Shown here in pieces: positions 1-17,434 of a stretch of 64,000 nt of DNA. Under the pieces are notes generated by a model. The model made no database searches. It had not been told where the DNA came from and saw only the letters and a list, made by a program, of their open reading frames with translations. The number at the start of each line of letters is the position of its first letter. Within the stretch, counting starts at the first letter, position 1. This DNA is from Beijerinckiaceae bacterium (lineage in GTDB: Bacteria > Pseudomonadota > Alphaproteobacteria > Rhizobiales > Beijerinckiaceae), in contig CANGBX010000002.1 of the NCBI GenBank assembly GCA_947452455.1, forward strand, positions 434,001 through 498,000. Reading direction: 5' to 3'. The position numbers were made by a program, and so were the translations under genes.

Positions 1-1400
1 CCTTCCCGCACGCTCAGTGACACAAGCTTGCCCGGCGCACGCGCAAAGACGGGTGCATCGACACGGGCTGTGGCAACAGCTGGAACGATCAAAGATGTCG
101 GCAGCGGCACGATGAAAGCCAACAAGGCAAACCCGACCACAGAAAATGTCACCGTGGCGCGGCGTGAGCGCGCGACATAATCGCGCCCTTTCCACCACCG
201 CAAAAACTCTTGCGCGATGGGGAGAAAAACAAACCAGATGATTTCAATCAGAAATAAAATGATGCCCAGCGCTTTGAAGGCGAAATGATAAACAAGCACC
301 GCAATGCCAAGGAACAAGAAGAAACGATAGATCCAGATCGCATAGGCATAAAGCGCCATAGTGATAAACCGCTTCCGGCTCATCAGTTCTGGCATGGGCG
401 CGCCCAAGCCGAACAAAAATTCACGCAAAGCCCAACGGCCGATCACCATGGCGCGTGTCTGCAAATTGGGAATGCCTAAAAAATCCGCCAAAATATGATA
501 GCCGTCAAACCGCATGAACGGATTGAGATTGAGCATCAACCCGAGCAAAAGGCTCGTCGTCGCAAGAGCAAAGACGGCCGTGCGCAAAGCACCGGGCGGC
601 AGGAACACCCACAAGAAAAGCGCCGCAGCAGCGATCATCAATTCGACCAGCAATCCTGCACAATCAATCGCCAATCTTTGCCAGCGCGATGACAGGCGCC
701 AAGCATCCGTCACATCAGAATAAAGGAACGGAGCCAAGACCATGAAGGCAATCCCCATGGTCGGCACGCGTACATGATAGCGTGTGGCCATATAGGCATG
801 GCCCAATTCATGCGCCGTCTTCACAAAGGGCACGCAGGCGGCAAGAATAAAGGCCCCTTCCCAATCAAGCAGGCCTAACCCAGTTGCAACAAAAGAATCC
901 CATTGCCGCGCGGCAAGCAAAATTCCGACCAGTCCCAAGACGCAGAAAATGCCGAACGTGATGTTCGAAAATAAAATCTCGCCGACCACACGTGTGCGTT
1001 CCAAAAAAGCTTGCGGGCGCACCAAGGGGATACGAAAAAAGAGATAATTGTGAACGAGCTGATAGAGCCAGTGTTTCTTTCGTGCGTGCTGGCGGGCAAT
1101 CAAACCGGCCGTATCTTTTGATTCCAATAATTCATGCGCACCCAGAAAATTGCGCAAAGCCAATATCTCATCACGCGAAACCACGCGACCGAAGCGGCTG
1201 TGAATGCGCCCGATTAAACCATCCAACGAGCCCACAGACCAATCACCGAGCAGTTCAACCATGCCCTGCCCGATCTGAAAATAGCGATGCGAGACGGGAT
1301 CAAAAATCACCCAACCCGGCGCGCCGGAGGCTAGGCGTGCTGAAGGCAGGATGCGCAAATCCTGGCGCATGGCGGGCAAAAAATCATCAGCCCCAATCAC
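1..1400 (-). CDS. M50 (site-2-type) membrane metallopeptidase with adaptor-like tail, partial
   Basis: Zinc metallopeptidase of the M50 family, probably in the inner membrane. Reading the minus strand from GTG at 1400 gives about 466 residues, open at the window edge. The N-terminal ~90 residues look like a PqqD-like winged-helix domain (inference). A hydrophobic region follows; HELGH lies at residues 197-201, and the second M50 motif NPFMRFDGY at 293-301 supplies the third ligand (Asp299). More membrane segments follow, then the first strand of a biotinyl-lipoyl/HlyD-like domain (APGKLVSLSVREG) where the window stops. The start overlaps the preceding adaptor gene by four bases (GTGA), so translation is probably coupled. 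Domain order resembles 'putative peptide zinc metalloproteases'. Its substrate is unknown; the cassette suggests a role in export or maturation of the giant protein. Confidence 0.88.
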   Translation of the reverse strand, partial: MIGADDFLPAMRQDLRILPSARLASGAPGWVIFDPVSHRYFQIGQGMVELLGDWSVGSLDGLIGRIHSRFGRVVSRDEILALRNFLGAHELLESKDTAGLIARQHARKKHWLYQLVHNYLFFRIPLVRPQAFLERTRVVGEILFSNITFGIFCVLGLVGILLAARQWDSFVATGLGLLDWEGAFILAACVPFVKTAHELGHAYMATRYHVRVPTMGIAFMVLAPFLYSDVTDAWRLSSRWQRLAIDCAGLLVELMIAAAALFLWVFLPPGALRTAVFALATTSLLLGLMLNLNPFMRFDGYHILADFLGIPNLQTRAMVIGRWALREFLFGLGAPMPELMSRKRFITMALYAYAIWIYRFFLFLGIAVLVYHFAFKALGIILFLIEIIWFVFLPIAQEFLRWWKGRDYVARSRRATVTFSVVGFALLAFIVPLPTSLIVPAVATARVDAPVFARAPGKLVSLSVRE

Positions 1401-2743
1401 AGGCCCACCATCTGGCGCAGCGCCGTGAGCGGTCGGCGCATCAGATAATAAATGAGCGGCACATCATCACCGAAAACCTGAGCCGTCCCGCGATAGCCGA
1501 TGCGCGGCGGCACGCTCTCACCCAGATGCCCATAAAGTACGAAAGCCAGACCACCACCCGCGATCGGCGTGGCATGATAAGTCGCACGTTCCAAACGTGC
1601 ATCGAGCGGATTGAGCGGATCTGAATCAAGATAAACGCGCACACGTGCCTGATCTCGCACAACGGGGGCATCTTTCACCGGCATGTCGATGCGCACCTGC
1701 ACATGATCGGGCGAAGCTATCTGCATGACGCGTTCGCCCATCGATACAGGTCGCCCTTCCCAATCTTTACGGCTGGCAAAGACCGCCAAACCAGATCGCC
1801 CCGCCATCACGCGCGTGCGTGTCAATTGATCAACAGCTGCATCACGCTCGGCATTGGCCAAGCGCAATTCAGCCGCTGCAATCGACAAATCCCGCCGCGC
1901 ATTGCGATCATCAAATGCGGCCTGTTGCAGGCGACGCTCTTTGGCAGCCGCCACTTCAACAGCCCGCTCGGCAACCTCCAGCCGACCACGGATGGTCGTA
2001 TCGACAAAAGAGATTAGCCCCTGCCCCGCCTCGATCTTCTGGTTGGGTTCCACCTGAATGGTTTGGATGATGCCTTCAATCGGCGCCGTCACGGTTTCAG
2101 GATCAAGGGGAACAATTTCGCAAGGGGCCAGAGCGGTCAGCGGCACGGGCACGAATGACAGCAGAAACACTGCCGCCAAAATGCACGGCAGCAAAAACTT
2201 GCGTCGACGCAAACCAAATTTCATGCGTGGCGGGCGATCAAATGCAGCCCAAGCATGGGCATAGGCGCCCGATAGATGCTGAAGCAATTTCAGCTCACGC
2301 TCTGACCACACTTCATTACGACCAAGCAACATGGCGCCCAAAGGCCTGCCATCGCGCGCACGCAACGGACAGAGTGCAAAATGGCCATAGGCCAGATCAA
2401 CAAGTCGATTTGTGTCACCCCCGCGTAGGTCATCGATGGTCAGAAGCGAGGGTTGCTCGGCGCCGGGCCAAGCGCGATTGATGGCCGCTTCCAGATCCTG
2501 CACAAGCGGCGATGTGCGCTCCACCGATGACAGGCTCGATATGGCCAAGAGAACCGCTTTGTTCTCCGGCCAACGGAAAACCGCTGCTTGCCCACAACGG
2601 ACAAGCTTGCGCGTTTCATTGGCTATCACATGCGACAGTTCGACAAGATCTTTTGCCTCACGCGCGGCGGCTTCAATGGCCAGCAAAATCTCTGCCGCAC
2701 TGGGTGCGGCACGCTGCATCTGCATCTCTGCATTCATATTCAT
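1397..2743 (-). CDS. HlyD-family adaptor with N-terminal GAF-like domain
   Basis: Membrane fusion protein of 448 residues. Residues ~20-165 look like a GAF-type domain (many small and hydrophobic residues, ending LGAMLLGRNEVWSERE), an unusual head for an HlyD adaptor. A single membrane segment spans ~182-205, followed by a half biotinyl-lipoyl motif (TAPIEGIIQTIQVEPNQKI), an Ala/Arg/Glu-rich coiled coil (~255-310), the second lipoyl half and a beta-barrel to the end. The GAF-like part would therefore be cytoplasmic and the rest periplasmic. ATG at 2743 overlaps the stop of the upstream adaptor (ATGA), and its own stop overlaps the M50 gene, so the three are translationally coupled. It should bridge inner membrane and TolC; no ABC or RND pump is encoded beside it. 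GAF assignment is by appearance and less certain than HlyD. Confidence 0.85.
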   Translation of the reverse strand: MNMNAEMQMQRAAPSAAEILLAIEAAAREAKDLVELSHVIANETRKLVRCGQAAVFRWPENKAVLLAISSLSSVERTSPLVQDLEAAINRAWPGAEQPSLLTIDDLRGGDTNRLVDLAYGHFALCPLRARDGRPLGAMLLGRNEVWSERELKLLQHLSGAYAHAWAAFDRPPRMKFGLRRRKFLLPCILAAVFLLSFVPVPLTALAPCEIVPLDPETVTAPIEGIIQTIQVEPNQKIEAGQGLISFVDTTIRGRLEVAERAVEVAAAKERRLQQAAFDDRNARRDLSIAAAELRLANAERDAAVDQLTRTRVMAGRSGLAVFASRKDWEGRPVSMGERVMQIASPDHVQVRIDMPVKDAPVVRDQARVRVYLDSDPLNPLDARLERATYHATPIAGGGLAFVLYGHLGESVPPRIGYRGTAQVFGDDVPLIYYLMRRPLTALRQMVGL

Positions 2744-3504
2744 GGCCGCGCCTTGGGAACAGGCAAAATGGCCGTGCCACTCATGCCCTGCAAAACACCG
2801 GCGTAGAGACCATCAAAAGTCCCAAAAACCTTCACCGTCTGGCTTGCCGGTTCAACCGCAGAGCCCTGACGCACAATCCGCGCCGGATAAGTTTGGCCCG
2901 TCTCATCAACGCGAAAGAGAAATGTCGTGCCCGGTTGCAAAGTTAACAGCGCAGATGAGGAGACCAGCAATTCGATCTCCAACCGCTCGCGATCAACAAT
3001 ACGCAGCAAGGGCGTCGAAGGGGCAATCACCTCATGGGGGTTGGCATTGCGATCAACAACCGCGCCAGAAAAGGGTGCGCGTACGATGCAGCCTTTCACA
3101 CGCACGGCTGTGGCATCCATATCGGCTGCTGCCCTGTCACGACGCGCCTCCGCCGTCTCCACATCGCGCTGACCGGCCGCCTTCATGCGCGCCATTTCAC
3201 GCGCGGTTTCGAGCGCCACATCGGCAGCGCGCAATTCAGCCTTGGCGCCTGCGAGATTGGCGTTCATGGCCTCGCAATCAAAGGACACAAGCACGTCGCC
3301 CGATTTGAAAACCTCGCCCTCACGAAAGGGCATGGCCAAAATGCGGGCCGAGATTTCACTGGAGATCGTCGCTTCCCCTAATGAGCGCACGAGCCCGCGC
3401 GCCTCCTCCGCTGCCCTTGCGGGAACAAGAGGCCCGACCAATGTAGCCAAGCCGAAAAGCGTGCCGATGCCGACCAGTACACTGGCCGTGCGGCTGTCAC
3501 TCAT
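2740..3504 (-). CDS. short periplasmic adaptor (RND/HlyD type)
   Basis: Periplasmic adaptor of 254 residues. I use ATG at 3504, which overlaps the TolC stop in ATGAGTGA; the frame continues 12 codons further up without better support. An N-terminal hydrophobic stretch ending PARAAEE is a likely signal peptide. Then come lipoyl strand 1 (SLGEATISSEISARILAMPF), an alpha hairpin rich in Ala/Glu/Arg (~75-125), lipoyl strand 2 (VRAPFSGAVVDRNANPHEVI) and a barrel. It is shorter than typical AcrA/HlyD (350-480 residues), lacking much of the membrane-proximal domain. As the second adaptor in the cassette it probably pairs with the GAF-HlyD protein and with TolC. Confidence 0.87.
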   Translation of the reverse strand: MSDSRTASVLVGIGTLFGLATLVGPLVPARAAEEARGLVRSLGEATISSEISARILAMPFREGEVFKSGDVLVSFDCEAMNANLAGAKAELRAADVALETAREMARMKAAGQRDVETAEARRDRAAADMDATAVRVKGCIVRAPFSGAVVDRNANPHEVIAPSTPLLRIVDRERLEIELLVSSSALLTLQPGTTFLFRVDETGQTYPARIVRQGSAVEPASQTVKVFGTFDGLYAGVLQGMSGTAILPVPKARP

Positions 3505-5023
3505 TCGACACAACACGGGCCGGCACCGCGCGCCCCTCAAGCTTGGCGCGGAAAGCGGATTTCAATTCAGACAAATCACTTGAGATTTCTGGATAGGGAT
3601 CACGCCCCATGGACGTCTGAACGACTGCCCAAGCAGCATGCACTTCAGCAAGGGCCATGTCATAACGCGCATGAGCCAGCAAGGCGGACAATTCCTCGCG
3701 CACCAATTCCTGATCACCACTACGCGCAGCCGATGTAGAAGCCTGTAATTGTTCGAGCAATTCTCTTTGCACAGATTCAAAATCACGGGACGTTTGGAGA
3801 CGACGACGAGCCTGCGCATAACGATCACGGCTGATCACCACCTGAAGAGCAACAGAGGCCACAAGGGCCCGTGCACGTTCCCGAACAAGATTTTCTTTTG
3901 CCTCTACTTCAGACTGACGCAATGGCAGAGTGAAGACCTTCATCAAGTTCCAGCTCGCCTGCGCTCCATAGCCCAGCCATTCCTTATTCAGTGTATAGGA
4001 ATTGCTCGTGGTATTGGCATTCAAGAAAATATTGATGCTGGGCAAAGTCTCAAGCAGGGCAATCGCCTGCCCCTTGCTTTCGATGCGCTCCTGATACAGC
4101 GCTTCGCGCACATCGGGGCGAAACTCGAGTGCGCTTTCAAACATGCTCTTGGTGTCAGGCAAGCGTCCGCTGATTTCAGCTTTGGGGCGCACAAGCGAGA
4201 AATTTGTTCCAGGCGGCAAGTTCATGAGTGAGGCAAGCTGTGCCTTGGCAGTCACGACTTCCGTTTGCACGGATTGAACGCGGTCCTGAATTTCGTAGAT
4301 TTCTTTCTGATAGGCCAATGCGGTGAGCGGAGAAACATTGCCATCCTTGATCAGAACCCGCGACTGTTCCAAAGCGGCCTTGGCGCGGGCCTCCACTTTC
4401 GGCAATTCACGCGCCAAATATTCAGCTGCCAGAGCTCGCCAATAGACCGTACGCACATCTTCAATCAAATGCGCCAGAACGCGCCGACGGCGCTCTTGCG
4501 CCACAAGAACTTGATCGGCAGCCTGTTTGGCCCGCACATAAGAAAGGCCCAGATCAAGCACGTTCCAAGCGAGCGCCGTATTGGCCGTATTCAACCGTTC
4601 ATCTTGTGAGGTGGAGGCCGAAAAATTGTTGAGCTTCTGACCAATATTATAGCTCGAACTTGCGTCCACCTTATTGCGCAACGTCCGTCCTGCACCCGCC
4701 GTCAAACCTGGCAACATGGCCACATTGGCGCTTGCGAGTTCAGTGGAGCGCAACAGGTATTCTGCCTGCTGAACGCGGTCTTCCAGATTATAAAGCACGG
4801 CGCGTGCCATGGCCTCGCCTAGATCGATTGAGCCCTTAACGGGCTCTTGGCCTTCATAAATATCTGCCACCCGATCTTGAGCTGCTTGGGATAATTGCGC
4901 ATTTGTCATCGGCTCGGGTGCAACCATGCAGCCCGAAAGGACGAGCCCCGAAAGCAACACAACAGAAAACTGCCAAGTCTGGCTAGGGCGCGCAATTGGC
5001 CCAAGATCACGAATGAAAAACAT
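3497..5023 (-). CDS. TolC-family outer membrane factor, lipoprotein
   Basis: Outer membrane efflux/secretion channel of 508 residues. ATG at 5023 is chosen over an upstream TTG at 5095 because it leaves a normal lipoprotein signal peptide: hydrophobic VVLLSGLVLSGC with lipobox LSGC at residues 29-32. The rest has the usual two OEP repeats, long helices rich in Ala/Glu/Gln/Arg with typical phrases such as SPLTALAYQKEIYEI and RPDVREALYQERI. It lies just downstream of the giant gene and overlaps the adaptor gene by eight bases. It should form the outer-membrane exit duct of this cassette. Confidence 0.92.
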   Translation of the reverse strand: MFFIRDLGPIARPSQTWQFSVVLLSGLVLSGCMVAPEPMTNAQLSQAAQDRVADIYEGQEPVKGSIDLGEAMARAVLYNLEDRVQQAEYLLRSTELASANVAMLPGLTAGAGRTLRNKVDASSSYNIGQKLNNFSASTSQDERLNTANTALAWNVLDLGLSYVRAKQAADQVLVAQERRRRVLAHLIEDVRTVYWRALAAEYLARELPKVEARAKAALEQSRVLIKDGNVSPLTALAYQKEIYEIQDRVQSVQTEVVTAKAQLASLMNLPPGTNFSLVRPKAEISGRLPDTKSMFESALEFRPDVREALYQERIESKGQAIALLETLPSINIFLNANTTSNSYTLNKEWLGYGAQASWNLMKVFTLPLRQSEVEAKENLVRERARALVASVALQVVISRDRYAQARRRLQTSRDFESVQRELLEQLQASTSAARSGDQELVREELSALLAHARYDMALAEVHAAWAVVQTSMGRDPYPEISSDLSELKSAFRAKLEGRAVPARVVSNE

Positions 5024-5107
5024 CAAAAAACTCGCAATAAAAGAATGGTGTTCGTCTACAACAAATTCAACAAAATGAAAACCTGCGAAATCCAAATGCA
5101 GCGCAGC

Positions 5108-8100
5108 TTATCCAAGCTCTTCTGCCAAAAGGTCAGCAAGTTCTGTCACATCGCCCCAAAGAAGCCCTGCCAATTGCTGGTCCAGACTTTGCGGCATAAG
5201 CCATGCCCCATCGGGAGAATTGACCGTAAATTGCCCCGACTTGGTATCGACCCTGATCTGCTGACGGATCACGGTGCCATCCCGCATGGTAATTTCGATC
5301 TCCATGCGAACTTCGGACGGCCCGTCACGGCGCACCAGAATACGCCCTGTCTTTGTATCTTCAATATAGGGCGCAACTTCAGGACGCGATGTGATTTTAA
5401 CAACGTCTATCTGGGGTAAATCTTCACGGGCCTGAACAAAAGCCGCGCCCCGCTCGCGCACCAGAATGCCGACTTCAACAAAGGCCGGCCGCAGATAGCT
5501 CGCATATTCAACGGCCGGAATTTGCTGAATGGGTGACGCAGCGTCACCAACCGAGCCCGTCACGTCACGCCGGAAGGCCTTACCATCAGTGGTCACAACA
5601 ATGCTGTTGACAGTTTTGACATCAAAGACAGACCCCAGAGGAACCCCAAATGTCGAAGACACCTGATTATCAGCTTGTGCTTCAGGTTTTGGGAATACAG
5701 CAGGGACCACCGGCTTAGGGGTCTCAGTCACCACAACTGGCTCCGGTGAAGCCGATGGCGCTCGCGGCAGTGAAATCGTAAGTTTGGAATCTGCTGTGTC
5801 AACAGAATTTCCCGCCGCATCCGTGATGCGAACGAAAATCGTCGAGTCACCCTCGTCGAGGGAGACACTATTTCTGACCGAATATTTCCCCGTCTGCGGA
5901 TCAGACGTGCCGCTACCGATCAGGACGACCTTATTTCCATCCCTGCGATAGACATCGACACGGGCACCCTTTTCAGCCTGACCGACAAATTTCACATCTG
6001 TCGATTGAGCTGGGCCATCAAATGGCTTGGCGACATCAGGAGTGCCCGTGCCATCATCGAAACCATCGAGCTTTCCACTTGTGCCCTGATCGATGACAAG
6101 CGTCGAGTTGGCCGTATCGGCACTATTGCCAGCGCTATCCGTCACGCGTGCGAATATCTGATAGGTGCCTTCACCCAATGCTGATCCTGGTGTGATCGAC
6201 CACTTGCCATTCACAATGGTCGTGGTGCCAAGACTTACGAGATTGGCGCCATCCCGACGGAACATTTCAACTTTGGCCCCCGCCTCACCCGTGCCGTTGA
6301 AGGTCGGTGTGGTGTCATTGGTGGGCGTGCTAAGTGCAAAATTACCCGACTGCGGATCAACATTGTCATCATAGCTCGTCAAAGCCACCGCCGGCGCATT
6401 GGTATCAATAGCTATGCCCGCGAAGGAATTGAGCGAACCGGCATTGCCGGCTTTGTCAGTGAAAGATCCTTTCAGCGTGACACCAGCCTGGCCCTCAAAA
6501 CCCGCCTCCGGCGTAAAGGTCGCCGTGAAGATTTTTGGATTGGTAGAACTGCGAACAAAATTGCTCAACGTGCCATGTGTCACGTTGAAATCGTCGATTG
6601 TGAGATCAAGTACGTCCTCTGACGCTTCGAACGTCAAAATGGCTGTCTCGCCAATTTTGAGAGCTGTGGCAGACGACGTGACTGTGAGCTTTGGTGCCAC
6701 TGTGTCCAGTGTGAAGCTTGTTGTGCCCCCGTCCGAGTCATTGCCCGCAGCATCTTTGGCGATGGCAGAGACCGTAATCGGGCCATCTCCCAATGTGTTG
6801 ATGTCATCTTGAGTCAGGATGACAGGTACAGGGGTCGCGCCTCCACCCTTCACCGTCTTGTTCACCTTTTTCGTGCCATTGGTGAAAGTGACCGTCACGT
6901 CAGTGTCGGGATCCGCCGTCACCGTCACAACGCCCTTGTCCTGCTTGGCTTCTTCACCTGTGGCCCCGTCATCGACACCCGGTCCCGGGGTTACCACGGG
7001 CTTGGTGGGCTTCACAGTATCGAGCGTAAAGCTGGTGGATCCGGCATCTGACACATTGCCTGCCAGATCGGTTGCTTTTGCAGAAACCGAAATCGTCCCG
7101 TCACCCAAGCTCGCCAGATCAGCTGTTGTGAGAAGAGCAGCAACTGGCGTTGCACCATTGCCTGTCACATTTTTGGTGATCGTTTTCGTGCCATTGGTGA
7201 AAGTCACAACGACAGAGGAGCCCGATTCAGCCGTCAATGTCACGACCCCGCCAGTCGCTGTCGCCTCGGCACTTGTCGCACCATCAGCAACACCTGTCCC
7301 TAGCGCAAGAACAGGAGCGTCCGGCTTGGTCGTATCAACCCTGTAAGTGGCATTATCTGCAACCGGAGCGTGACCCAGAACAACAGAATTGCCAGAAGAT
7401 TTGGTCGTAATGGCAGCCCCGTTCAAAGTGAGCACACTGGCATCTAGGCTGATACCATTTGTATCCGTCTCACCTGCTCCAATTGAGTAGGTGAATGTGA
7501 GACTCGACGTGCCAGAACCGCCTTTAAAGATCGCATATTTCGTATCATTGCCGATCTTGAAGGCGAGCTGTGGTGTACCGCTCGTCACATTGACTGCTTC
7601 GGTAAAGGTCACGGTCGCCGTGACTGTGTCACCTTCATTGAGATAATTATTTTGCGCACCTGTCTGGGATGTCAGAGCCACGCTGCTGATCGATGCAGCC
7701 GTTGTATCGAGAGCAAAACTCAAAGGCCCCGATGTGACGCTCTGCGCATTGCCAGCATTGCCCGCAATATCAGCAAAAGAGCCAGTTGTTTTGAATTCAA
7801 TTTTCCCGGTGCCATTGAAACTGGTCTTTGGGGTAAATGTGGCTGTGTAAACCTTCGGATCAGTGGTGCTTTGCACTAAGTTGCTCAATGACCCGTTGGT
7901 GACATCAAAATCACTCACATCAAGACCCGTCACAGCCTCTGACAGAGTGAAGGTGATCGTTGCAAATTCACCCGCTTTCAAAGATGTGGCGGACGTTGAC
8001 AGTGCGAGCGTGGGGGCTGTCCTGTCGAGAGTGAAATTTGAGGTTGCAGCATCAGATGCATTACCAGCAGCATCCGTAGCCACAGCCGTCACGGTCAAAG

Positions 8101-11100
8101 GTCCATCACCCAAATCCGCAAGGTCTTGAGGTGTTAAGCTAATGAGGAGGGGTGTCGCACCCCCGCCTGTATAGGTGGGCTTGGTGACTGTCTTGGTGCC
8201 ATTCTTGAAAGTCACGACAACAGACGTACCTGCCTCGGCTGTCAGCGTCATGGTCGCATCATTGGTCAGGCGATCGCTACCGTTCGATCCGCTATCCGTC
8301 GACAAAGTCAAAACCGGTGCTGGAGGTTTTGTCGTATCGATTGTGATTGTAAAGGAAGACGAAGCGACACTCTCATTGCCCGCAGCATCGGTTGCTTTCA
8401 CTGTAAACGCATGAACATCCGCTGTCAGATTGGCTGTAGTGAATGTATATGTGCCAAGCGTAGATGTCTCGGTCGCAGTGCCAAGCAATGTCGAGCCGTC
8501 ATAGACCCTCACGACCGATCCCGACTCCGCAGTGATTGTCAAAGTCGGCGTTGTGTCATTGGTGTAACCATTATTGGAGACAGTGCCAGTGACAGGCGAT
8601 GCATCGTCATTCAAATTCGAAATAACTGGTTTTGCCGGGGCACTCGCATCAATCGTCACAGTATACGAGTTCGAGACCCCGCTTTCATTGCCAGCACTAT
8701 CTGAGGATTTAACGGTAAAGCTGTGACCACCATTGGACAGGGCTGCTGTCGTAAATGTGAATATGCCTGAAGTCGAAGTTTCCGTGGCTGTCCCGAGCAA
8801 AGTCGAACCGTCATAGACCTTCACAACAGACCCTGTTTCCGCTGTGATCGTCAATGTCGGTGTCGTATCATTGGTTGCACTACTATTCGCAACAATGCCT
8901 TGCACTGGATCCACATTATCCGTCACGGAAGTGATCGTCGGCGTAGCAGGAGTCGTTGTATCAATGGACACAGCATAGGCTGAGGATTGTGAGCTTTCAT
9001 TGCCCGCAGCATCCGTAGCTTTGACAGTAAAGCTGTGGTTGCCGCTATTCAGGGCCGAAGTTGTGTATGTAAATGTGCCGGCAGTCGAGGTCTCCGTGGC
9101 CGTGCCGAGCAAAGTGGTTCCGTCATAGACCTTCACCACAGACCCTGTTTCCGCTGTGATCGTCAATGTCGGTGTCGTGTCATTGGTTGCCCCACTATTG
9201 ACAACAACGCCTTGCACTGGATCGACATTATCCGTCACCGAAGTGATCGTGGGCGTAGATGGAGCGCTCGCATCAATGGTCACCGCATAGGTGGCTGAGG
9301 CCGCACTTTCGTTGCCCGCAACATCTGTCGCCTTCACTGTGAAGGTATGACTACCGCTACTCAGGGCAGATGTTGTAAAATTATAGGTGCCAGCGGTTGA
9401 TGTTTCGGTGGCAGTACCGAGCAAAGTCGAACCGTCATAGACCTTCACTACCGATCCTGCTTCCGCAGTGATCGTTAGCGTCGGCGTTGTATCATTGGTG
9501 AAACCATTATTAGCAACAGTTCCCTGAACAGGATCGACATTATCATTCACAGAATGAATCGCGGGCGTAGTTGGTGCCTTTGTGTCCACGGCCAGCGAGA
9601 GGGATGAAGGCGGCGCTAATCCTTCATTGCCGGCGAGATCCGTGTAAGACCCGCCGAATGAGAGATTTGCGGAACCCTCAAATGAAGAGGATGGCGTAAA
9701 AGTCGCTGTATAGACATTGCTCGTGCCAACCCGCGCAAAATTGCTCAAGGCACCATTGCTCACCGTAAAATCAGAGGCATCAAGACCCAAGACAGATTCC
9801 GATACCGTAAAGGTAATAGTCGCCGTCTCCCCGATTTTCAGGGCTGGTTGCGAAGATGAAATAGTAATCGTCGGAGCCGCCGTATCAACCATAAGGGTCG
9901 CATTATCGCTGACCGCAGCATGGTCGAGCACGACATTATTGCCTGATGAACCAATGAGTGTCGCGCCATTCAGCTCCAGCTTGTTGGCATCAATGCTGAT
10001 GCCGTTTGAATCTGTGTCACCAGACGCGATTGTATAGGTGAAGGTCAGGCCTGTGGTGCCATCCCCACTCTTGTAAGTCGCGTAACGTGTCACGCCACCA
10101 ATGTTGAGCGCGACCCGCGGCGTCCCGGTGACCGTGACTGATTGCGTGAAAGTGGCTGTGACGGTGACGACATCACCCGCATTGAGATAATTGTTTTGCC
10201 CGCCCGTGGCTGTGATGGCGAGACTGGAAAGCGATGGCGCCGTCGTATCGACGCTTAAACTGACTGGCGTTTTTAAAGTGCCAGCATTACCCGCAATGTC
10301 TGTATAGGCGCCGGTCAAAGTGACAGTCGCAGTACCGTTGAAATTGGTCGCTGGTGAAAAGGTCGCTGTGTAAACCTTGGCATTTGTCGAGCTCTGGGTG
10401 AACGCACTCAATGTGCCACCCGAAACTGTGAAGTCAGTGGCCGTGAGGCCGTCAATCGATTCTGATGCTGTAAAAGTAATGGTTGTCGTCTCACCAGCTT
10501 TGAGACTTGTCTTATCAGCAACCCAGGTCACTTCAGGTGCTGACGTATCAATGGTGAGAGCAGCAGAGTTTGACGAGATTGCCGAGACAAGACCGAAATA
10601 GGTCTGTCTGACTTGAATCTGCCCAGACGCGTAGGTGCCATCACCTAGATCGAAACTCGTGCCGGATCCTTGTGTGAAATTAACACCACCATCAATCGAA
10701 TATTCCCAATCCGCTCTTATCGAAACCAAACTACTCACAGTGACGGTTTTATTTTTCATAACACCATCGATCAGCGATACACCTGTCTCAGCGGGAAGTG
10801 TCAAAACAAGAGCATCGGGTGGTGTATTTATAACGGTTAAGTCTGTAGTAATGCCCCCGATTGAACTTGCATTGCCGGCAAGGTCAATAAGCTGCGTTTT
10901 AATTGTATTTTTTGGATAAAATCCATCTTGCAAATAAACAAATCCATCCGTTGAGAGCTGCCATGTTGTGCCGCTATCAAGAGAATAACGCAGATACCCG
11001 CCAGACGTCTGGGCATCAAAATCAGAAGCATAAAAGAAATTGGCACCTACAATCTTGTTGCTGTTGGGAATGCTATTATCTACATTAGAATCAGGAAATT

Positions 11101-14100
11101 TTATTGACCCGGAAGAGCTTGGCGGTGTCATATCAATCCAAATAACTTGGCTGTTCGATGTCACAGCCGAAACATTTCCGGATGCACTTGTCTGGCGCAC
11201 TTGAATGTCGCCAATCTGGTATTTGTTGCCTCCGGTCAATTGCGGAAGCGTGAAACTGGTTCCGCTTCCTGTGAACCAAGTCACGCCTTTATTGAGTGAA
11301 TATTGCCAGGTTGCGCCACTCACTAGGCCACTGACATTGACTATGCCGTCATTGGTGACAAAATCATTGCCAAATTTGCCAGTGTCATTGGGCAAAGCGA
11401 TTGTCGGCGCCGTGACAACCGTCGTATCAACCTTGATCGTGAACGCACTCGTTGCTGCAGATTCAGAGCCAGCAGCGTTCACATATTTCGCCGTATAATT
11501 GTGGGTACCCGCAGTGACTCCTGTGAGTTGATAGGACCAAGTCTTCGTTGTGCCTGATGTATCAACAATGGCAGACCCGACCTTTGTCGTGCCTTCATAA
11601 ATATCAATCTTGCCAGCACCACCAGCAGTGCCAACAAGCAAGGGCGATGTATCATCGGTCGTAACGCCTGATACCGAGGGCGATGCCGAAGTTGACGTGA
11701 CATTGCCGATATCATCAACAAAACCGCTGATCACAGGAACGGCGGGTGTAGATGTGTCGACTGATAGAAGGAAGCTTGTACTCGTAAGCCCTGAATTCCC
11801 TGCAATATCGACTGCGTAGGCAACTACCGAATATGAACCAGATGCCATATTAGCCGCCGGCGTATAACTCCAGTTCGTTTGTGTCGCACCAAGAGTGACG
11901 CTTCCGGTGACCCCCGGACCAAAAGAGCCATCAGCTTTGATCAAATTATATCTGACATAAACTGTAGAACCGGCCTCTGATGTCCCATAGAAAGTAGGCG
12001 TTGGGTCATCGGTCGTCACATTGGCCGTCGTGAAATTATCTTTCAAATTTCCGACGTTATCCGTGAAACCTGTGATCACAGGAACAGATGGTGGAGTGAT
12101 ATCGACAACATATTTTGTCGGCAAAGCTGAGCCGGATTTGATGTTACCCGCAGCGTCGACAACCTGAAGCACCACCTTGTTAGCTGCAAAGACATCGCCA
12201 TCATTGAAATCCCAGAAATAATAATAGACCCCATTGTTCTGTCGTACCGGTCTTAAATCAGCGAAGGTCAAACCACCATCAATGCTAATCTGGGGCTTTT
12301 CATCAGCTGCATAACCGTAAACAGGATCAAGCGTGTCAATACGCCAAGAGGTTTGTCGAATATAAGTGAGCGTGGAATTACCCGACGTCAGTGTTCCCGA
12401 AGTAAAGGAAAGCTGTGCACCATAGGTTGGCGCCACGCGATCCAGTTTAATCGCAGCTGCATTGCTTCCCGCATCTGACAGATTTCCCGCCTTGTCGGTC
12501 TGGCGCACCTGCAGATCGCCAATGGCATAAGTGCCATCCGTGCTCAGCGTGAAAGTCGCCCCGCTCCCCGCCGTCCAGGCGCCTGTGCCAATTTTATATT
12601 CCCAGGACGCGCCGTCCTCCAGACCTGTCACCTTGATGATATTGTCCTTGGTGATCAGGTCACTGCTGCTTGAACCCGTATCGCTGTTGAGCGACAGGCT
12701 GGGTGCGCTTGGTTTGGTGACATCAATATGTGTTTCAGGCAGCATTGTGCTTTGCGAGACATTGCCCGCCGCATCGATCTGGCGCACTGCAACAGCCGTC
12801 GAGCCCAGATAATCGCCCGGTGCTAATGTGAAAAACCCGAGACTGGATGCCTGGGCTTCGCTCCATGTCGTGCCGCCATCTGTCGAATATTGCCACGAGC
12901 CCGTGCTCTCAATATTCGTTACATTGATCCTGCCATTGGTACTATAATTATCGCTCGCACTCGTACCGGTATCGCTAGCCAGAGCAAGCGTGGGTTTTGC
13001 AGGCGCCGTCACATCGACATTAATGGTGAAATCAGAAGTAGAACTCGACAGATTGCCCAGACTATCCTGCGTTTTTGCTGAAAATTTACGGGCGCCCTCC
13101 GCCAGCGCGCTTGCAACCTGATAAGACCAGAGCCCATTACTGTCAGAATTAACACTAGCCAGAATGGTTGTGCTGCCATCTAGATAAATATTGACCTGCG
13201 TATTGGCAGCCGCAGTGCCCTTCAAGAGCGGCAAAGTGTCATCGGTAAAGGTGCCGGAAGCGGCGGTGTTGGGAACAACGGTCCCAACATCATCCTTGAA
13301 ACTATCAATGGTTGGGGCTGTCAGATTATAATTAAAAGCAACAGGTGAAGTCGTATAGGCTGTCTTCACCATCGGGTTGCCGGAATTCTGTGCGCCTTCA
13401 TCAACACCGGTCTTGTTGGTGGCCGCATCGAAACCCGCAAAATTATAATCGAGGGTCAGATCGCCAGAACCCGAACCCACACTCACGGTCACATCGACGT
13501 AATATTTACCAGAAACAGAATCATAATTGGATTTGATAGATTCCGTTCCGGTCGTTTGGCCCGCTATCGACAAGACACGTGGCGAATTTTTGGTGTCTGT
13601 CGATGTGGTGCTTAGTGTAAAATTCGTTGTTTTCAAATTAACGACAGATTCTGAAAATTCAACACGAAAGGTTGTTGTCGGCGCAGTGACAGTACCGCTA
13701 GCCGAGTTTGTGATGCCCTTCACAATGGGGCCATCCATCAGCGTGACAAAGCCATCACGCAATCCTGCTGCCCCGACATCCACACCCGCGAAAGAGATTT
13801 TGCCGCCCGTGGCAAGCACATCAGAACTCGATGTTGCAATCACTTGCCATGCATCACTTTCCGTTGCACGCCACGCAAGGCTCATGCCCGAGCGGCCGGA
13901 ATATGTATCTGAGACTTGTTGGACTGTCTGTCCGGACTGCGCGGCTAGAGAGGCAACGTCAAAGGAGACATCGACCTTGCCACCACTGCCTCCCGACACA
14001 TCAACAGCCCAAGAGCGTGTAAAACGTGTCACGCCAGGGTTACCTGGATTTACCGTCGCATCCACGGCTTTAAATTGGGGATCGGCCCCATCATTGCCAA

Positions 14101-17100
14101 ACATAATGCTGGCGGTCGCAGAACCGGCAGCTGCAAAGAATCCTGCATCACTAATGATCAAGCCGCCATTGGCCGAGGATGTTTTGGCGGTGCTCGCGCT
14201 CGCGCCATCTTTCAGAATACCGTCGATATCAGATGCATATGCAAGCTGAAGTGCTGCTTTTGCAGTCGCGCTCGCACTCGCGACTGCATTCACCACATAG
14301 AGATCTGACACGCCAGAAGCTAGAGACAAGATATAGGCTTGCGATTCAGCATTGGCCAAAATGGTCGTCTCTGCCGAAGTCAGGGTACGATTATAGGCGA
14401 TCACCGCACCCATTTGCCCTGTAAATCGCGCTCCAATCGAACCAATGGTGGCAATGTTCGTCGAGCTAATGGAACTGCCCGCATAAGTAACACCATTGAC
14501 CATGATCGAAGTTGTAACGCCATCACCACTTATATAAGGACTTGAGGCTGATCCTATGACCCAAGATTGGCCAGAAGCAGAAACCAATTTTCCTGTTGTT
14601 CCCGATTGACCAACAAAGCCGATGCCATCAGCTGCATCGTTTGTTGTAAAAAAGCCGTAGGAATTAGGACCAGTCCCTGATGAGAAAGAATTGAATGGGC
14701 CGTTTTTGTCGGCAACCTGAGGCTGTTGACTTAACGGATCGACATATTGAGCTGATGACTGACCGACGTAAAAAAGTGTTCTCGGAGTCAAAATGCTTGA
14801 GAGGGAGAGATAATCCGAGCTGGCCGTATTAATCGAATAAGTTGTAGTCGATCCACTGACTGTGAACGTGGGGACCCCCACGAATGAGAGATATTTGCGT
14901 CCAGTTGCCGGATCTGTTGCATAAACTGGCTGATTGCCGGTTGTGTTTTGCTTGGCATTATTTCCGTTGCCACTCAAATCATTTAATTGATTTACAGCGT
15001 TGCCTGTCGTTTTGACAGAAGACGTAATGCTCGGGTCTAACCACAATAAAAGGCTGTCTTGACCAAGCCCACCCGGCGACCAGGCACCCGTAAAATAAAC
15101 AGTCGTTTCTGCAGATGAAGATGTTTTATTCTGTGCATCAGTCACGATGAAAGAAATGGCTATGAACCCATTGCCGAAGTCGGAACTGGGTACACCATAA
15201 CTCCAACTTCCATCTGCATTGACTGTTGTGATATAAGGCGTGGATTTCTTGACTAAGGGCCCATAGGAATAAACAAGCTGTTTGCTTGTAGCATCCGTCT
15301 TAACCGTCACTTCTCTTGTATAAACATCAATGGTGAGAGTCGAACCTGGCTGTTTGGTCGTCGTGGTCGTAATACCATTAGAGGTCGTTGCAAAGCCCGT
15401 AAGCGTCAGGCCATCAACAAGAGAACCTGTCGTTACAGTGTCAGATTGGGTTGTTCCAAACCTGTCCGATATTGTAAAAGTCGGATCAGCTGTATCCTTG
15501 TAAAAGCTCATAACGAAAGTGCCGGACTGTACGGATTGTCCGGCTACAGTCGCATTTGCTGTAAATGTAACGGTATATTTTCCATCAATATTATTAGCCA
15601 AACTTGGCAACTCATAAGTCCACTTATTATTCACAATGTCATTACTTGTCGGCGCCACATTCGTAAGGGTGTAATTTACGCCTGATCCAGTAGGACCGGC
15701 GACTTTGACTGTTAATGTGGATCCGGATGGTAAATCGGTTCCATAAAATGTCGGCGTTGCATCGTCCGTTGCCGGTGTTGCTTGTGTCGATGTGAAAGCA
15801 ACGTCAGTGACTGTACCGGAATTATCCGTAAAACCACCAAGAGACGGCGTGCTCATTTGCAGAATTTTTATATTAACTGCCATCCCTGATTTTGATGTGG
15901 GCACACCGGTCGAGCTCGCCGCCGTTCCATCAATAAAATTGCCAGCACTATCGACAAGATAAAGATAGTAAGTGTCATTGGATTGTAAAATCCCCGAGGT
16001 CGTACTGATATTTTTATAATTACTATTTGCTAAAAGATTCAAATTAATCAAATTTCCGCTAGACCATACATCGTTGCGCGAACTTAAAACACTCCCGTCG
16101 GCATTAAAACGAATAGTGCGTATTGCACCGCCGATATTTGTCAATTTTGATACTTGATCCGCTGTCAGATTAATTCTGAAAAGAGTATTTGTTGTCACAC
16201 TCACTGAAGAATCGAATGAAGTATAAGGAGTTGACGCATTCCCTGAAAGAATGGTGTTGTTTGTTGTATCCAGAACGGTCGGAGCTGTGGTGCGAATATG
16301 AATATAAAACGAAGCATCACTTGTGATAGCTGATTCAGTGAAGCCAGAATATTCTTGGGTTATAGCCAGACGGACAGTACCCTCACTCAGGGCATTGTTA
16401 ATATCGGGCGAGATCTTGTATTTGCTCGAAGCATCTGCCGTTGCCGTTCCCAGTAATTTAATTTTATTAAGCGAAGAATCAATCGCATAAAGTCGAACGG
16501 TTGCTCCGACTGCACTGGCTGAACCAGAAAATGTTGGTGTCGTATCATTGGTCCAACTTGCAGTCGGAACATCTGCTCCAGCCTTGAATCCAACGGAAAC
16601 AGTTAAGCTGGAAGGAGTGAAATTTGGAGTTTTATCGTCAAGAAAATTTGCATCCACAGTTGGTGCGGCGGCCGGCGCCAGCTCATGCACATAATTTTCC
16701 GGCGCAAGAACCTTGGCTTCAATCACACCTGTCGTCTTTTCCAGCGTCCAGTCAGCGCCATGATTGGTGAACCCCACCGCATCAGCCGAGGCCGCGACAT
16801 CGCGCCCTGTTTCCTGCGACAATGTCTTGATCAGGGTCTCGCCATCCGTGCCTTTGGCCACATCGCAGCCATAGAGAAGAATATCGGCACCGACCGCGAG
16901 AGATTGCGTCCAACTATTCATATCGGCTTCATGCGCCTTGATCGCATCAACGCCGATCCAGTTTTTTCCGAGCTCGAATGAGCCTTCCACACCATGGCCA
17001 ACAATATGCACGGCCGAAATATCATGCAGGCCCTTCAGCGTGTCGGTGATTTTGGTGATGCCGTCGTCTTGCGCATCCACAACCACGATGAGGCGATTGT

Positions 17101-17434
17101 CGCCTGCCGTCTTTTTGAACGCGTCAATGTCGGACACGCGACTGTCGATAAACACCACTTCAACGGGAGCAGGCGCAGCGGGTGTGGGCGGCACGGAGGC
17201 CGCTGCCATCATCTTTGTCAGGTCTGCAGCAGATTTGGCCGTTGAATCCGTCTGGCCCGTATCTACCGAATCGGAAGCTTGTTTGGCGGCATCGGCTACA
17301 ATGGCCACACCCGCGCCGTCAAAGACCATGCGCGGCTCCAGCGCGATCAATTCGCCTGCCAGCGGATCACGCCGCAAACCCAGAGCACGAATAGCAATTT
17401 CTTCACGAGACAATGGCGCAAATGGCTTGTTCAT
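5108..17434 (-). CDS. giant exported repeat protein: LEPR motif, DUF4347, ~28 Ig-like modules
   Basis: A 4,108-residue protein from ATG at 17434 (the frame extends to a TTG at 17491 with no ribosome site). Near the N terminus LEPRMVFDGA (residues 32-41) is the LEPR-XLL-type motif seen in giant exported proteins. Residues ~90-251 match DUF4347: VHIVGHG (His147) and ILLYGCDVA (Cys190) have the spacing and hydrophobic setting of a caspase-like His/Cys pair (inference). About 28 Ig-like or cadherin-like modules of 85-110 residues follow, each with D.AGN and TNDTTPT phrases. They are interrupted at ~800-1030 by a concanavalin/LamG-like domain (LLLWLDPS, LNDLSGNGNNA) and a following beta domain. 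A Pro-rich linker (near 5,700) precedes a ~200-residue C-terminal domain ending LLAEELG. I see no GGxGxD RTX repeats. It heads the export operon, so it is the likely cargo: an adhesin or biofilm/surface protein. Confidence 0.9.
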   Translation of the reverse strand: MNKPFAPLSREEIAIRALGLRRDPLAGELIALEPRMVFDGAGVAIVADAAKQASDSVDTGQTDSTAKSAADLTKMMAAASVPPTPAAPAPVEVVFIDSRVSDIDAFKKTAGDNRLIVVVDAQDDGITKITDTLKGLHDISAVHIVGHGVEGSFELGKNWIGVDAIKAHEADMNSWTQSLAVGADILLYGCDVAKGTDGETLIKTLSQETGRDVAASADAVGFTNHGADWTLEKTTGVIEAKVLAPENYVHELAPAAAPTVDANFLDDKTPNFTPSSLTVSVGFKAGADVPTASWTNDTTPTFSGSASAVGATVRLYAIDSSLNKIKLLGTATADASSKYKISPDINNALSEGTVRLAITQEYSGFTESAITSDASFYIHIRTTAPTVLDTTNNTILSGNASTPYTSFDSSVSVTTNTLFRINLTADQVSKLTNIGGAIRTIRFNADGSVLSSRNDVWSSGNLINLNLLANSNYKNISTTSGILQSNDTYYLYLVDSAGNFIDGTAASSTGVPTSKSGMAVNIKILQMSTPSLGGFTDNSGTVTDVAFTSTQATPATDDATPTFYGTDLPSGSTLTVKVAGPTGSGVNYTLTNVAPTSNDIVNNKWTYELPSLANNIDGKYTVTFTANATVAGQSVQSGTFVMSFYKDTADPTFTISDRFGTTQSDTVTTGSLVDGLTLTGFATTSNGITTTTTKQPGSTLTIDVYTREVTVKTDATSKQLVYSYGPLVKKSTPYITTVNADGSWSYGVPSSDFGNGFIAISFIVTDAQNKTSSSAETTVYFTGAWSPGGLGQDSLLLWLDPSITSSVKTTGNAVNQLNDLSGNGNNAKQNTTGNQPVYATDPATGRKYLSFVGVPTFTVSGSTTTYSINTASSDYLSLSSILTPRTLFYVGQSSAQYVDPLSQQPQVADKNGPFNSFSSGTGPNSYGFFTTNDAADGIGFVGQSGTTGKLVSASGQSWVIGSASSPYISGDGVTTSIMVNGVTYAGSSISSTNIATIGSIGARFTGQMGAVIAYNRTLTSAETTILANAESQAYILSLASGVSDLYVVNAVASASATAKAALQLAYASDIDGILKDGASASTAKTSSANGGLIISDAGFFAAAGSATASIMFGNDGADPQFKAVDATVNPGNPGVTRFTRSWAVDVSGGSGGKVDVSFDVASLAAQSGQTVQQVSDTYSGRSGMSLAWRATESDAWQVIATSSSDVLATGGKISFAGVDVGAAGLRDGFVTLMDGPIVKGITNSASGTVTAPTTTFRVEFSESVVNLKTTNFTLSTTSTDTKNSPRVLSIAGQTTGTESIKSNYDSVSGKYYVDVTVSVGSGSGDLTLDYNFAGFDAATNKTGVDEGAQNSGNPMVKTAYTTSPVAFNYNLTAPTIDSFKDDVGTVVPNTAASGTFTDDTLPLLKGTAAANTQVNIYLDGSTTILASVNSDSNGLWSYQVASALAEGARKFSAKTQDSLGNLSSSTSDFTINVDVTAPAKPTLALASDTGTSASDNYSTNGRINVTNIESTGSWQYSTDGGTTWSEAQASSLGFFTLAPGDYLGSTAVAVRQIDAAGNVSQSTMLPETHIDVTKPSAPSLSLNSDTGSSSSDLITKDNIIKVTGLEDGASWEYKIGTGAWTAGSGATFTLSTDGTYAIGDLQVRQTDKAGNLSDAGSNAAAIKLDRVAPTYGAQLSFTSGTLTSGNSTLTYIRQTSWRIDTLDPVYGYAADEKPQISIDGGLTFADLRPVRQNNGVYYYFWDFNDGDVFAANKVVLQVVDAAGNIKSGSALPTKYVVDITPPSVPVITGFTDNVGNLKDNFTTANVTTDDPTPTFYGTSEAGSTVYVRYNLIKADGSFGPGVTGSVTLGATQTNWSYTPAANMASGSYSVVAYAVDIAGNSGLTSTSFLLSVDTSTPAVPVISGFVDDIGNVTSTSASPSVSGVTTDDTSPLLVGTAGGAGKIDIYEGTTKVGSAIVDTSGTTKTWSYQLTGVTAGTHNYTAKYVNAAGSESAATSAFTIKVDTTVVTAPTIALPNDTGKFGNDFVTNDGIVNVSGLVSGATWQYSLNKGVTWFTGSGTSFTLPQLTGGNKYQIGDIQVRQTSASGNVSAVTSNSQVIWIDMTPPSSSGSIKFPDSNVDNSIPNSNKIVGANFFYASDFDAQTSGGYLRYSLDSGTTWQLSTDGFVYLQDGFYPKNTIKTQLIDLAGNASSIGGITTDLTVINTPPDALVLTLPAETGVSLIDGVMKNKTVTVSSLVSIRADWEYSIDGGVNFTQGSGTSFDLGDGTYASGQIQVRQTYFGLVSAISSNSAALTIDTSAPEVTWVADKTSLKAGETTTITFTASESIDGLTATDFTVSGGTLSAFTQSSTNAKVYTATFSPATNFNGTATVTLTGAYTDIAGNAGTLKTPVSLSVDTTAPSLSSLAITATGGQNNYLNAGDVVTVTATFTQSVTVTGTPRVALNIGGVTRYATYKSGDGTTGLTFTYTIASGDTDSNGISIDANKLELNGATLIGSSGNNVVLDHAAVSDNATLMVDTAAPTITISSSQPALKIGETATITFTVSESVLGLDASDFTVSNGALSNFARVGTSNVYTATFTPSSSFEGSANLSFGGSYTDLAGNEGLAPPSSLSLAVDTKAPTTPAIHSVNDNVDPVQGTVANNGFTNDTTPTLTITAEAGSVVKVYDGSTLLGTATETSTAGTYNFTTSALSSGSHTFTVKATDVAGNESAASATYAVTIDASAPSTPTITSVTDNVDPVQGVVVNSGATNDTTPTLTITAETGSVVKVYDGTTLLGTATETSTAGTFTYTTSALNSGNHSFTVKATDAAGNESSQSSAYAVSIDTTTPATPTITSVTDNVDPVQGIVANSSATNDTTPTLTITAETGSVVKVYDGSTLLGTATETSTSGIFTFTTAALSNGGHSFTVKSSDSAGNESGVSNSYTVTIDASAPAKPVISNLNDDASPVTGTVSNNGYTNDTTPTLTITAESGSVVRVYDGSTLLGTATETSTLGTYTFTTANLTADVHAFTVKATDAAGNESVASSSFTITIDTTKPPAPVLTLSTDSGSNGSDRLTNDATMTLTAEAGTSVVVTFKNGTKTVTKPTYTGGGATPLLISLTPQDLADLGDGPLTVTAVATDAAGNASDAATSNFTLDRTAPTLALSTSATSLKAGEFATITFTLSEAVTGLDVSDFDVTNGSLSNLVQSTTDPKVYTATFTPKTSFNGTGKIEFKTTGSFADIAGNAGNAQSVTSGPLSFALDTTAASISSVALTSQTGAQNNYLNEGDTVTATVTFTEAVNVTSGTPQLAFKIGNDTKYAIFKGGSGTSSLTFTYSIGAGETDTNGISLDASVLTLNGAAITTKSSGNSVVLGHAPVADNATYRVDTTKPDAPVLALGTGVADGATSAEATATGGVVTLTAESGSSVVVTFTNGTKTITKNVTGNGATPVAALLTTADLASLGDGTISVSAKATDLAGNVSDAGSTSFTLDTVKPTKPVVTPGPGVDDGATGEEAKQDKGVVTVTADPDTDVTVTFTNGTKKVNKTVKGGGATPVPVILTQDDINTLGDGPITVSAIAKDAAGNDSDGGTTSFTLDTVAPKLTVTSSATALKIGETAILTFEASEDVLDLTIDDFNVTHGTLSNFVRSSTNPKIFTATFTPEAGFEGQAGVTLKGSFTDKAGNAGSLNSFAGIAIDTNAPAVALTSYDDNVDPQSGNFALSTPTNDTTPTFNGTGEAGAKVEMFRRDGANLVSLGTTTIVNGKWSITPGSALGEGTYQIFARVTDSAGNSADTANSTLVIDQGTSGKLDGFDDGTGTPDVAKPFDGPAQSTDVKFVGQAEKGARVDVYRRDGNKVVLIGSGTSDPQTGKYSVRNSVSLDEGDSTIFVRITDAAGNSVDTADSKLTISLPRAPSASPEPVVVTETPKPVVPAVFPKPEAQADNQVSSTFGVPLGSVFDVKTVNSIVVTTDGKAFRRDVTGSVGDAASPIQQIPAVEYASYLRPAFVEVGILVRERGAAFVQAREDLPQIDVVKITSRPEVAPYIEDTKTGRILVRRDGPSEVRMEIEITMRDGTVIRQQIRVDTKSGQFTVNSPDGAWLMPQSLDQQLAGLLWGDVTELADLLAEELG
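8330..9590 (-). repeat. four tandem ~312-bp coding repeats in the giant gene
   Basis: Within the giant gene four consecutive Big_6-like modules of 103-104 residues are nearly alike. Each carries TNDTTPTLTITAE, SVVKVYDGSTLLGTATETS (or a one-residue variant) and F/YTVKATDxAGNES. The DNA encoding YDGSTL recurs at about 8495, 8806, 9117 and 9430. This is the least diverged part of the protein, which points to recent duplication or ongoing homogenisation. Repeat number is likely to vary between strains. Confidence 0.9.

Follow-up and report, generated by a model that had tools for sequence, protein, structure and literature searches.

Giant adhesins such as LapA, SiiE and the RTX adhesins are exported by type I systems, in which a TolC, an HlyD adaptor and a very long repeat cargo are encoded beside the exporter; type I secretion signals are C-terminal. 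A second group of described systems, comprising RiPP sets (daptide, NF041824; YydH/LiaK) and PCAT, is characterized by an M50 fold with its zinc motif, a PqqD-like domain and a short substrate leader. Elsewhere, domains of the PqqD/RRE fold (three strands, then three helices) bind leader peptides; M50 proteases frequently have a role in signalling, and the classical substrates of site-2 proteases are membrane-embedded. Other large proteins share a short N-terminal motif, LEPR-XLL (NF012209), for which no export partner was described in the portions of the open-access literature covered, and DUF4347 (PF14252) is a domain of the T6SS effector PA0256.

The window (the whole stretch of DNA analysed, 64,000 nucleotides from a Beijerinckiaceae bacterium) started with five genes on the minus strand (Table 1), packed as the original prediction had described them. 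The overlaps were read directly in the last four genes: ATGAGTGA between the TolC and short HlyD genes, ATGA between the short HlyD and GAF-HlyD genes, and GTGA between the GAF-HlyD and M50 genes. The giant and TolC genes did not overlap (gap of 84 bases with the preferred ATG; a TTG located 57 bases upstream of this ATG would give 4,127 aa). Pfam bore out the predicted composition: DUF4347 (156 bits) and Big_13, Big_12 and Big_6 repeats in a giant that had been estimated at about 4,100 residues, and OEP, HlyD, GAF and Peptidase_M50 in the TolC, the short adaptor, the GAF-HlyD adaptor and the M50 protein with an adaptor part of its own. The GAF match was close to the cut-off (22.9 vs. 22.4), and the TolC-type protein showed a lipobox-like LSGC close to its start (by eye). 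The M50-HlyD gene ran from 1400 to -708, past position 1, and encoded 702 aa. Two features were additions to the original prediction: the M50 protein has a PqqD-like N-terminus, and the giant carries a leader motif.

Table 1. Features of the five-gene locus (positions in the window).
Feature	Positions	Strand	Remarks
Giant Ig-repeat protein, presumed cargo	5108..17434	-	4,108 aa from ATG
Leader motif LEPRMVFDGA of giant	17312..17341	-	residues 32-41 from ATG
DUF4347 domain of giant	16703..17158	-	predicted caspase-like fold, His-Gly and Cys as expected
C-terminal tail SLDQQLAGLL...LADLLAEELG of giant	5111..5188	-	
TolC-type outer-membrane factor (OEP, Pfam)	3497..~5023	-	
Short HlyD/RND-type periplasmic adaptor	2740..3504	-	N-terminus signal-peptide-like
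GAF-HlyD adaptor	1397..2743	-	GAF, residues 32-162; HlyD, residues 217-388
M50-HlyD membrane protease, in-window part	1..1400	-	residues 1-466 of 702
PqqD/RRE-like N-terminal domain of M50 protein	1107..1385	-	structure model, profile comparison
HELGH zinc-site motif of M50 protein	798..812	-	residues 197-201

The set was located between dnaE and rpsB. Beyond position 1, the end of the M50 gene was followed by rpsB, tsf, pyrH, frr, uppS, cdsA, dxr, rseP and bamA (names from translations; rseP also backed by an M50 match), and no ABC or RND gene was found among the ORFs as far as bamA, which agrees with the predicted lack of an ABC gene in the set. On the other side, the end of dnaE was 177 bases from the ATG of the giant, followed by queC, lolD and lolC (names from translations); lolD, 4.7 kb away, is an ABC ATPase resembling the lipoprotein-release ATPase. 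In two genomes of the same family (G189, G467) dnaE and rpsB adjoined, with 346 bases between the aligned ends and without the five-gene block, indicating that the five genes came or went here as a block. In a third genome of the family (G364) dnaE and rpsB were separated by 1.9 kb, and in six other relatives dnaE was not seen in the stretch fetched. This block-wise presence, together with the recurrence described below, supports the earlier proposal that the genes form one unit.

The M50 protein matched at least 10 of 190 genomes of the class and at least 84 of 299 genomes of the phylum (lower bounds, the best few candidates being scored per genome); DUF4347 was present in 85 of the 299. Eleven of the 84 matching genomes were weak: ten paralogous, and G462, with an M50 protein similar to that of the window (type A) in pieces and no DUF4347. 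DUF4347 was present in 67 of the remaining 73 genomes (Fisher 1.9e-42, a value that ignores kinship; 67 of 74 if G462 is counted), and six genomes had this M50 type without DUF4347; in two with the M50 type and no DUF4347 (G238, G376), the N-terminus of the cargo was outside what was seen. Of the 122 M50 matches listed (E 8.5e-80 or better), at least 44, from at least 33 genomes, had a listed DUF4347 within 25 kb.

Two sets of neighbourhoods were fetched, with some organisms common to both: 60 picked for spread (55 of the 122 listed matches and 5 of the 10 class matches), and the best 80 of at least 576 relatives from named organisms. They included Rhizobiaceae, Methylobacterium, Azospirillum, Pseudomonas, Halomonas, Pectobacterium, Nitrosomonas, Pelagibacteraceae and Nitrospira. 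In Azospirillum brasilense Sp7, genes for an M50 relative, two adaptors, TolC and a DUF4347 giant followed one another in a single run. GAF-HlyD accompanied the M50 gene in 57/60 and 79/80 neighbourhoods (136/140) and was directly upstream of it in 53/60 and 72/80; short HlyD was present in 54/60 and 71/80, TolC within 10 kb in 39/60 and 61/80, and all three in 38/60 and 60/80. Within 10 kb, 21/60 and 19/80 loci showed no TolC, partly due to contig ends or to a TolC beyond the giant. Thus, the neighbourhood analysis suggested by the original prediction showed that M50-HlyD, GAF-HlyD, HlyD and TolC recur, often beside giants and without a linked ABC exporter. A widely common further gene family, a possible motor, was not found in the 140 neighbourhoods (ORFs of 110-999 aa, BLAST 1e-15); of the 14 other families listed, the largest were, with names given by eye, ABC proteins in 20 loci, SDR-like enzymes in 11 and kinase-like proteins in 9.

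Relatives of the M50 protein were also detected on 57 plasmid records, including 18 from Escherichia and 8 from Citrobacter. The Citrobacter freundii plasmid pCF_324-4 (CP078023; L181, 2-18073), an IncFIA/FIB plasmid, carried the four export genes close to IS26 and a resistance region with blaNDM-1, and a stop broke the large upstream frame. Some further genes recurred in smaller numbers of cassette loci: a family found in eight loci (L023:5463-6182, L025, L029, L061, L062, L142, L161, L175), whose only member scanned (L023) was a Phage Tail Collar protein, and a sulfotransferase-like family (L144 scanned) found in five, both of which possibly correspond to extra cargo or to modification; and a protein of about 380 aa (L104:8753-9889), encoded after the M50 gene in L104 and present in five more loci (L101, L102, L103, L120, L156), the L104 member giving no Pfam match at E 0.001 when scanned.

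The five residues of the metal site (H, E, H, N and D) were invariant in 40 type A M50 proteins and in 19 of a paralogous group (type B, described below). A structure model of residues 1-466 (pLDDT 86.2, 62 sequences) had the S2P fold, with HExxH and the distal N/D ligands in membrane helices, and its top Foldseek match was the M. jannaschii site-2 protease 3b4r (probability 1.00, E 3.9e-3); the Foldseek search of the whole model matched the protease only, without any match to the small N-terminal domain. In the model this domain, which preceded the first predicted membrane helix, spanned residues 16-88 and consisted of three strands followed by three helices, as in the PqqD/RRE class, to which it was assigned by this order and by a profile match to PqqD, direct Pfam matches being weak in type A. 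Sixty type A N-termini aligned with 24 PqqD domains at 95.4% (hhalign, E 1.7e-8, 63 columns of 67) vs. 58.7% for the full-length type A alignment, 0.1% for the GAF-HlyD control and 3.8% for the DUF4347 control. Pfam recognized PqqD in 8 of 60 type A relatives (all weak, best 0.0081) but not in the N-terminal domain of the window's own M50 protein, and no relatives of the domain were found in the PDB by profile search. Two of its residues were conserved in all 40 type A proteins compared (of 62): Arg12, also present in 15 of 19 type B proteins, and Asp34, present in 18 of 19 (Glu in the remaining one) vs. Ala at the aligned position of a representative PqqD. The best NCBIfam match of the M50 protein was the daptide HExxH protein NF041824, below the cut-off (151.6 vs. 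300).

The giants had in common an N-terminal leader with the consensus LExRxx(F/L)D(A/G)A, preceded by 3-132 residues, often basic, counted from the earliest possible start codon. Among non-core ORFs of 600 aa or more, 59 of 233 had the pattern. Of 4,331 ORFs of 100-599 aa, two had it; both were truncated by the end of the fetched stretch, and one contained DUF4347. One further instance came from the 169 large core-labelled ORFs, in an ORF that another scan had labelled DUF4347. A leader-bearing ORF was found in 61 of the 140 loci; in the other 79, where inspected, the start of the large ORF was mostly outside the fetched stretch. For cut-off giants, 20 stretches intended to cover the start were fetched, and the leader was seen in 18, including cargos without DUF4347. 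The strict leader was missing in twelve large repeat-like ORFs whose start was visible: two in L166, with the near form LEKRLMLDAS; five corresponding to other proteins (L028 plus strand, L034, L044, L066, L115); and five antisense-like by eye (L024, L028 minus strand, L032, two in L130). In L096 a second large ORF had no leader. The two ORFs of L166 (L166:252-6043, a Micavibrio cassette locus) were adjacent and encoded 967 and 964 aa, and one cassette may serve two cargos there.

DUF4347 itself was considered as the export signal and rejected: giants without a DUF4347 match in the genome were still leader-bearing (L031, L084, L085, L088), and none of the eight DUF4347 proteins inspected from cassette-free genomes had the leader (G231, G266, G291, G327, G336, G354; six of the 14 with neither M50 type). 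The leader was also missing in three DUF4347 proteins from genomes with the cassette (L186, L187, L201). The model of the domain (pLDDT 76.9 overall, above 90 across most of the domain) matched the T6SS protein Tce1 first in Foldseek, followed by legumain, the MARTX protease domain and caspases, intermixed with other alpha/beta folds, e.g. dehydrogenases. C190 (YGC) and G148 were invariant in the alignment and H147 was present in 30 of 33 sequences, corresponding, at the fold level, to the caspase-like fold and His-Gly and Cys dyad of clan CD. The domain behind the leader is probably cysteine-protease-like, judging from the model. In three leader-bearing giants of the Nitrospira type (L109, L118, L124) the presumed catalytic His was replaced by Glu, and their DUF4347 is possibly inactive.

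The type B M50 proteins were 25-32% identical to the type A query of the window. Their N-termini aligned at 95.3% with PqqD and at 97.3% with type A in profile comparisons; Pfam detected PqqD in 10 of 19 (best 1.1e-9) and not in the other nine, and of eight PqqD matches in frames of 718-768 aa, the five that were traced all fell in type B M50 ORFs. The type B cassette (L210, L214, L266, L267, L269, L271) comprised a PqqD-M50-HlyD protein of about 720 aa, an HlyD protein of about 620 aa and a short HlyD, and DUF4347 frames of 7,246 to 14,920 aa were present on the same contigs as a type B cassette (G245, G242, G200, G194). The associated leader was of the form LExRxLLS(A/G): LExRxx(L/F)S(A/G) was found in 10 of 13 giants from genomes with the type B M50 or from its contig (one with M for the first L), the other three varying (LLDG, LLNS, LFAA); several of these giants were on the same contig as the M50 gene and not adjacent to it, one (L198) had its M50 gene on another contig, and one (L196) was placed without M50 look-up. 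NCBIfam LEPR-XLL (NF012209) scored above its cut-off (17 bits) in four of seven leaders tested, three of three of type B and one of four of type A, and did not match the leader of the window; a motif of the LEPR-XLL type appears to be linked to two M50 cassettes. Two M50 types occurred with two leader types and the subtypes thus vary together, a co-variation that, at the sequence level, is what recognition of the leader by the protease would predict.

The reading favored in this work, with a probability of about 0.58, is that the RRE-M50-HlyD protein, the two other adaptors and TolC form one leader-directed export module for the giant, without a dedicated ABC ATPase. The five genes would encode one export module for one cargo, and the giant would be made with a basic, non-Sec N-terminal leader ending in LEPRxxFDGA. 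The N-terminal, presumably cytoplasmic, PqqD/RRE-like domain would bind this leader at the inner membrane, and the M50 site would clip the leader or gate its entry. The polypeptide would then enter a conduit composed of the HlyD part of the M50 protein, GAF-HlyD, short HlyD and TolC. There are six adaptor positions around a TolC trimer, and three adaptors could, speculatively, fill them. In a module with no ABC ATPase, energy might come from the folding of the Ig repeats outside, from the proton motive force or from some further partner. The putative caspase-like DUF4347, which directly follows the leader, may cleave the exported cargo. The gene set, its recurrence, the absence of a linked ABC exporter, the RRE-like domain and the leader motif with its two subtypes were computed; leader recognition, M50 cleavage, export of the giant, energy source and stoichiometry are proposed from the sequences.

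The best surviving of the other explanations, although unlikely, is a type I system with its ABC ATPase encoded elsewhere: adaptors and TolC would be dedicated to the giant, the motor would be common, and M50 would only process the leader. ABC exporters were examined in the cassette neighbourhoods and genome-wide. An ABC ATPase was present within 3 kb of the core genes in 4/60 and 4/80 loci (8/140). According to Pfam, three of these eight had an ABC_membrane match (L167, L069 and L051, the latter just under the cut-off), all in the opposite orientation to the M50 gene; two resembled peptide importers (L020, L119), one was ABC-F-like (L179) and two were ATPases without membrane match (L026, L170). 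In none of the 140 neighbourhoods was an ABC exporter membrane domain found within 3 kb on the strand of the M50 gene, which argues against a borrowed motor, as does the scarcity of RTX motifs: three or more were present in only 1 of 61 cargos, and the giant of the window has one.

The genome-wide scan of 30 cassette genomes covered the PrtD, LssB and HlyB families, which scored over curated cut-offs in 18, 15 and 6 genomes respectively (24 of 30 in total), so that borrowing of a motor is possible in those genomes. The genome of the window is one with a PrtD-type ABC (a single one, C5:259563); its five other ABC exporters were over the MsbA-related cut-off (one), over the glucan-exporter cut-off (one) or MsbA-like below cut-off (three), and it also encodes five full-length RND pumps. 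The explanation is weakened by the other six genomes (G028, G260, G207, G385, G468, G070), in which none of the three families was found over the curated cut-off. Two of them (G028, G260) had sub-threshold relatives of type I ABC proteins, and in the other four the best ABC proteins scored at the level of the MsbA-type flippases that the window's genome encodes; a leader-bearing giant was seen near the cassette in three of these four (G207, L026; G385, L095, by eye; G468, L031), and in G070 a contig end cut the M50 gene.

The C-termini of the cargos are a further point in favor of a type I motor, whose signals are at that end. A short common tail of the type [FLM]xxQ[LIM] was present in 33 of 65 presumed-cargo C-termini vs. 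4.0% in a control set of 2,035 other ORFs and 5.7% when tails were shuffled (the pattern was picked after inspection). Since the C-termini are so often conserved, the signal need not be the leader, and the tail might serve either as a second signal or in retention. Both alternatives of the original prediction, a distinct secretion route or an ATPase elsewhere driving export, are compatible with these results, the six genomes lacking a type I ABC over cut-off favoring the distinct route.

Somewhat less probable is a passage of the giant through the inner membrane by way of Sec (with an unusual signal), Tat or another translocase, the cassette working in the periplasm and outer membrane only and M50 cutting the membrane-held leader afterwards. 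Membrane-embedded substrates are those classically cut by site-2 proteases, and two leaderless DUF4347 proteins (L184, from a genome without cassette, and L187) have a Sec-like start by eye, so the domain can travel in this way. The leader, by its hydropathy, is non-Sec-like: the median was 1.30 for 62 leaders vs. 2.37 for 98 short-adaptor N-termini, and the top 12-residue hydropathy was higher than 2.0 in 1.6% of the former vs. 85% of the latter. The position of the leader-reading-type domain ahead of the first M50 helix also speaks against such a route, as the predicted topology would have it meet the leader in the cytoplasm. The last explanation, that M50 and the adaptors work in signalling or in the export of a small peptide or lipid and the giant is a mere genetic neighbour, would fit the signalling role of many M50 proteases, the daptide (RiPP) metalloprotease as best, sub-threshold NCBIfam match and the six genomes with the M50 type and no DUF4347, but is very improbable given that 61 of 140 neighbourhoods and 18 of the 20 stretches reaching the giant starts contain a leader-bearing large ORF, and that two M50 subtypes pair with two leader subtypes.

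The favored reading, an ABC-free module directed by the leader, can be formulated in a more complete and more tentative form, with chances somewhat short of even: an RRE-site-2-protease-adaptor fusion would replace the exporter and read the LExR motif, Arg12 and Asp34 pairing with its Glu and Arg, and cargos of fewer than 1,000 to more than 10,000 residues would be secreted via TolC, in at least two lineages (FD(A/G)A and LLS(A/G)) of Proteobacteria and Nitrospirota.

Compared with the described systems, the cassette is similar to type I systems in its HlyD-type adaptor and TolC, but by the features tested it is not one of them, since the locus has no ABC exporter alongside its adaptor and cargo genes. 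It has instead three adaptor-like proteins, including one with a fused protease, and its cargos have a common N-terminal leader and hardly any RTX repeats. The Pectobacterium multi-repeat adhesin MRP was considered as the same system and set aside, since in the portions of its reports covered (PMC6963963, PMC6584795) it is described as a T1SS with LapG; this was decided by description and not by locus comparison. Unlike RiPP sets and PCAT, the cassette has cargos of hundreds to thousands of residues, not peptides, and an M50 protein fused to HlyD, and no C39 peptidase or ABC domain was found in the five proteins. DUF4347 follows the leader in a giant repeat protein here, in contrast to its place in a T6SS effector; Tce1, the best fold match of its model, is not equated in this work with the PA0256 of PMC8262886. 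No prior description of such a cassette was found in the open-access literature (subscription journals being outside the scope), and in the first 300,000 characters of PMC8277102 the only "M50" string is the residue M507.

The cassette would be a variant of the tripartite conduit, apparently undescribed, and a new kind of secretion system if its independence from ABC is shown. If the reading is true, many giants labelled only DUF4347 or LEPR-XLL, from soil, marine and plant-associated bacteria and from some enterobacterial plasmids, would gain an export route and a recognisable signal, and the expulsion of proteins of thousands of residues without a dedicated ATPase becomes a testable question. 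Tripartite envelope conduits would then have, beyond ABC, RND and MFS, a further inner-membrane partner: a leader-reading membrane protease.
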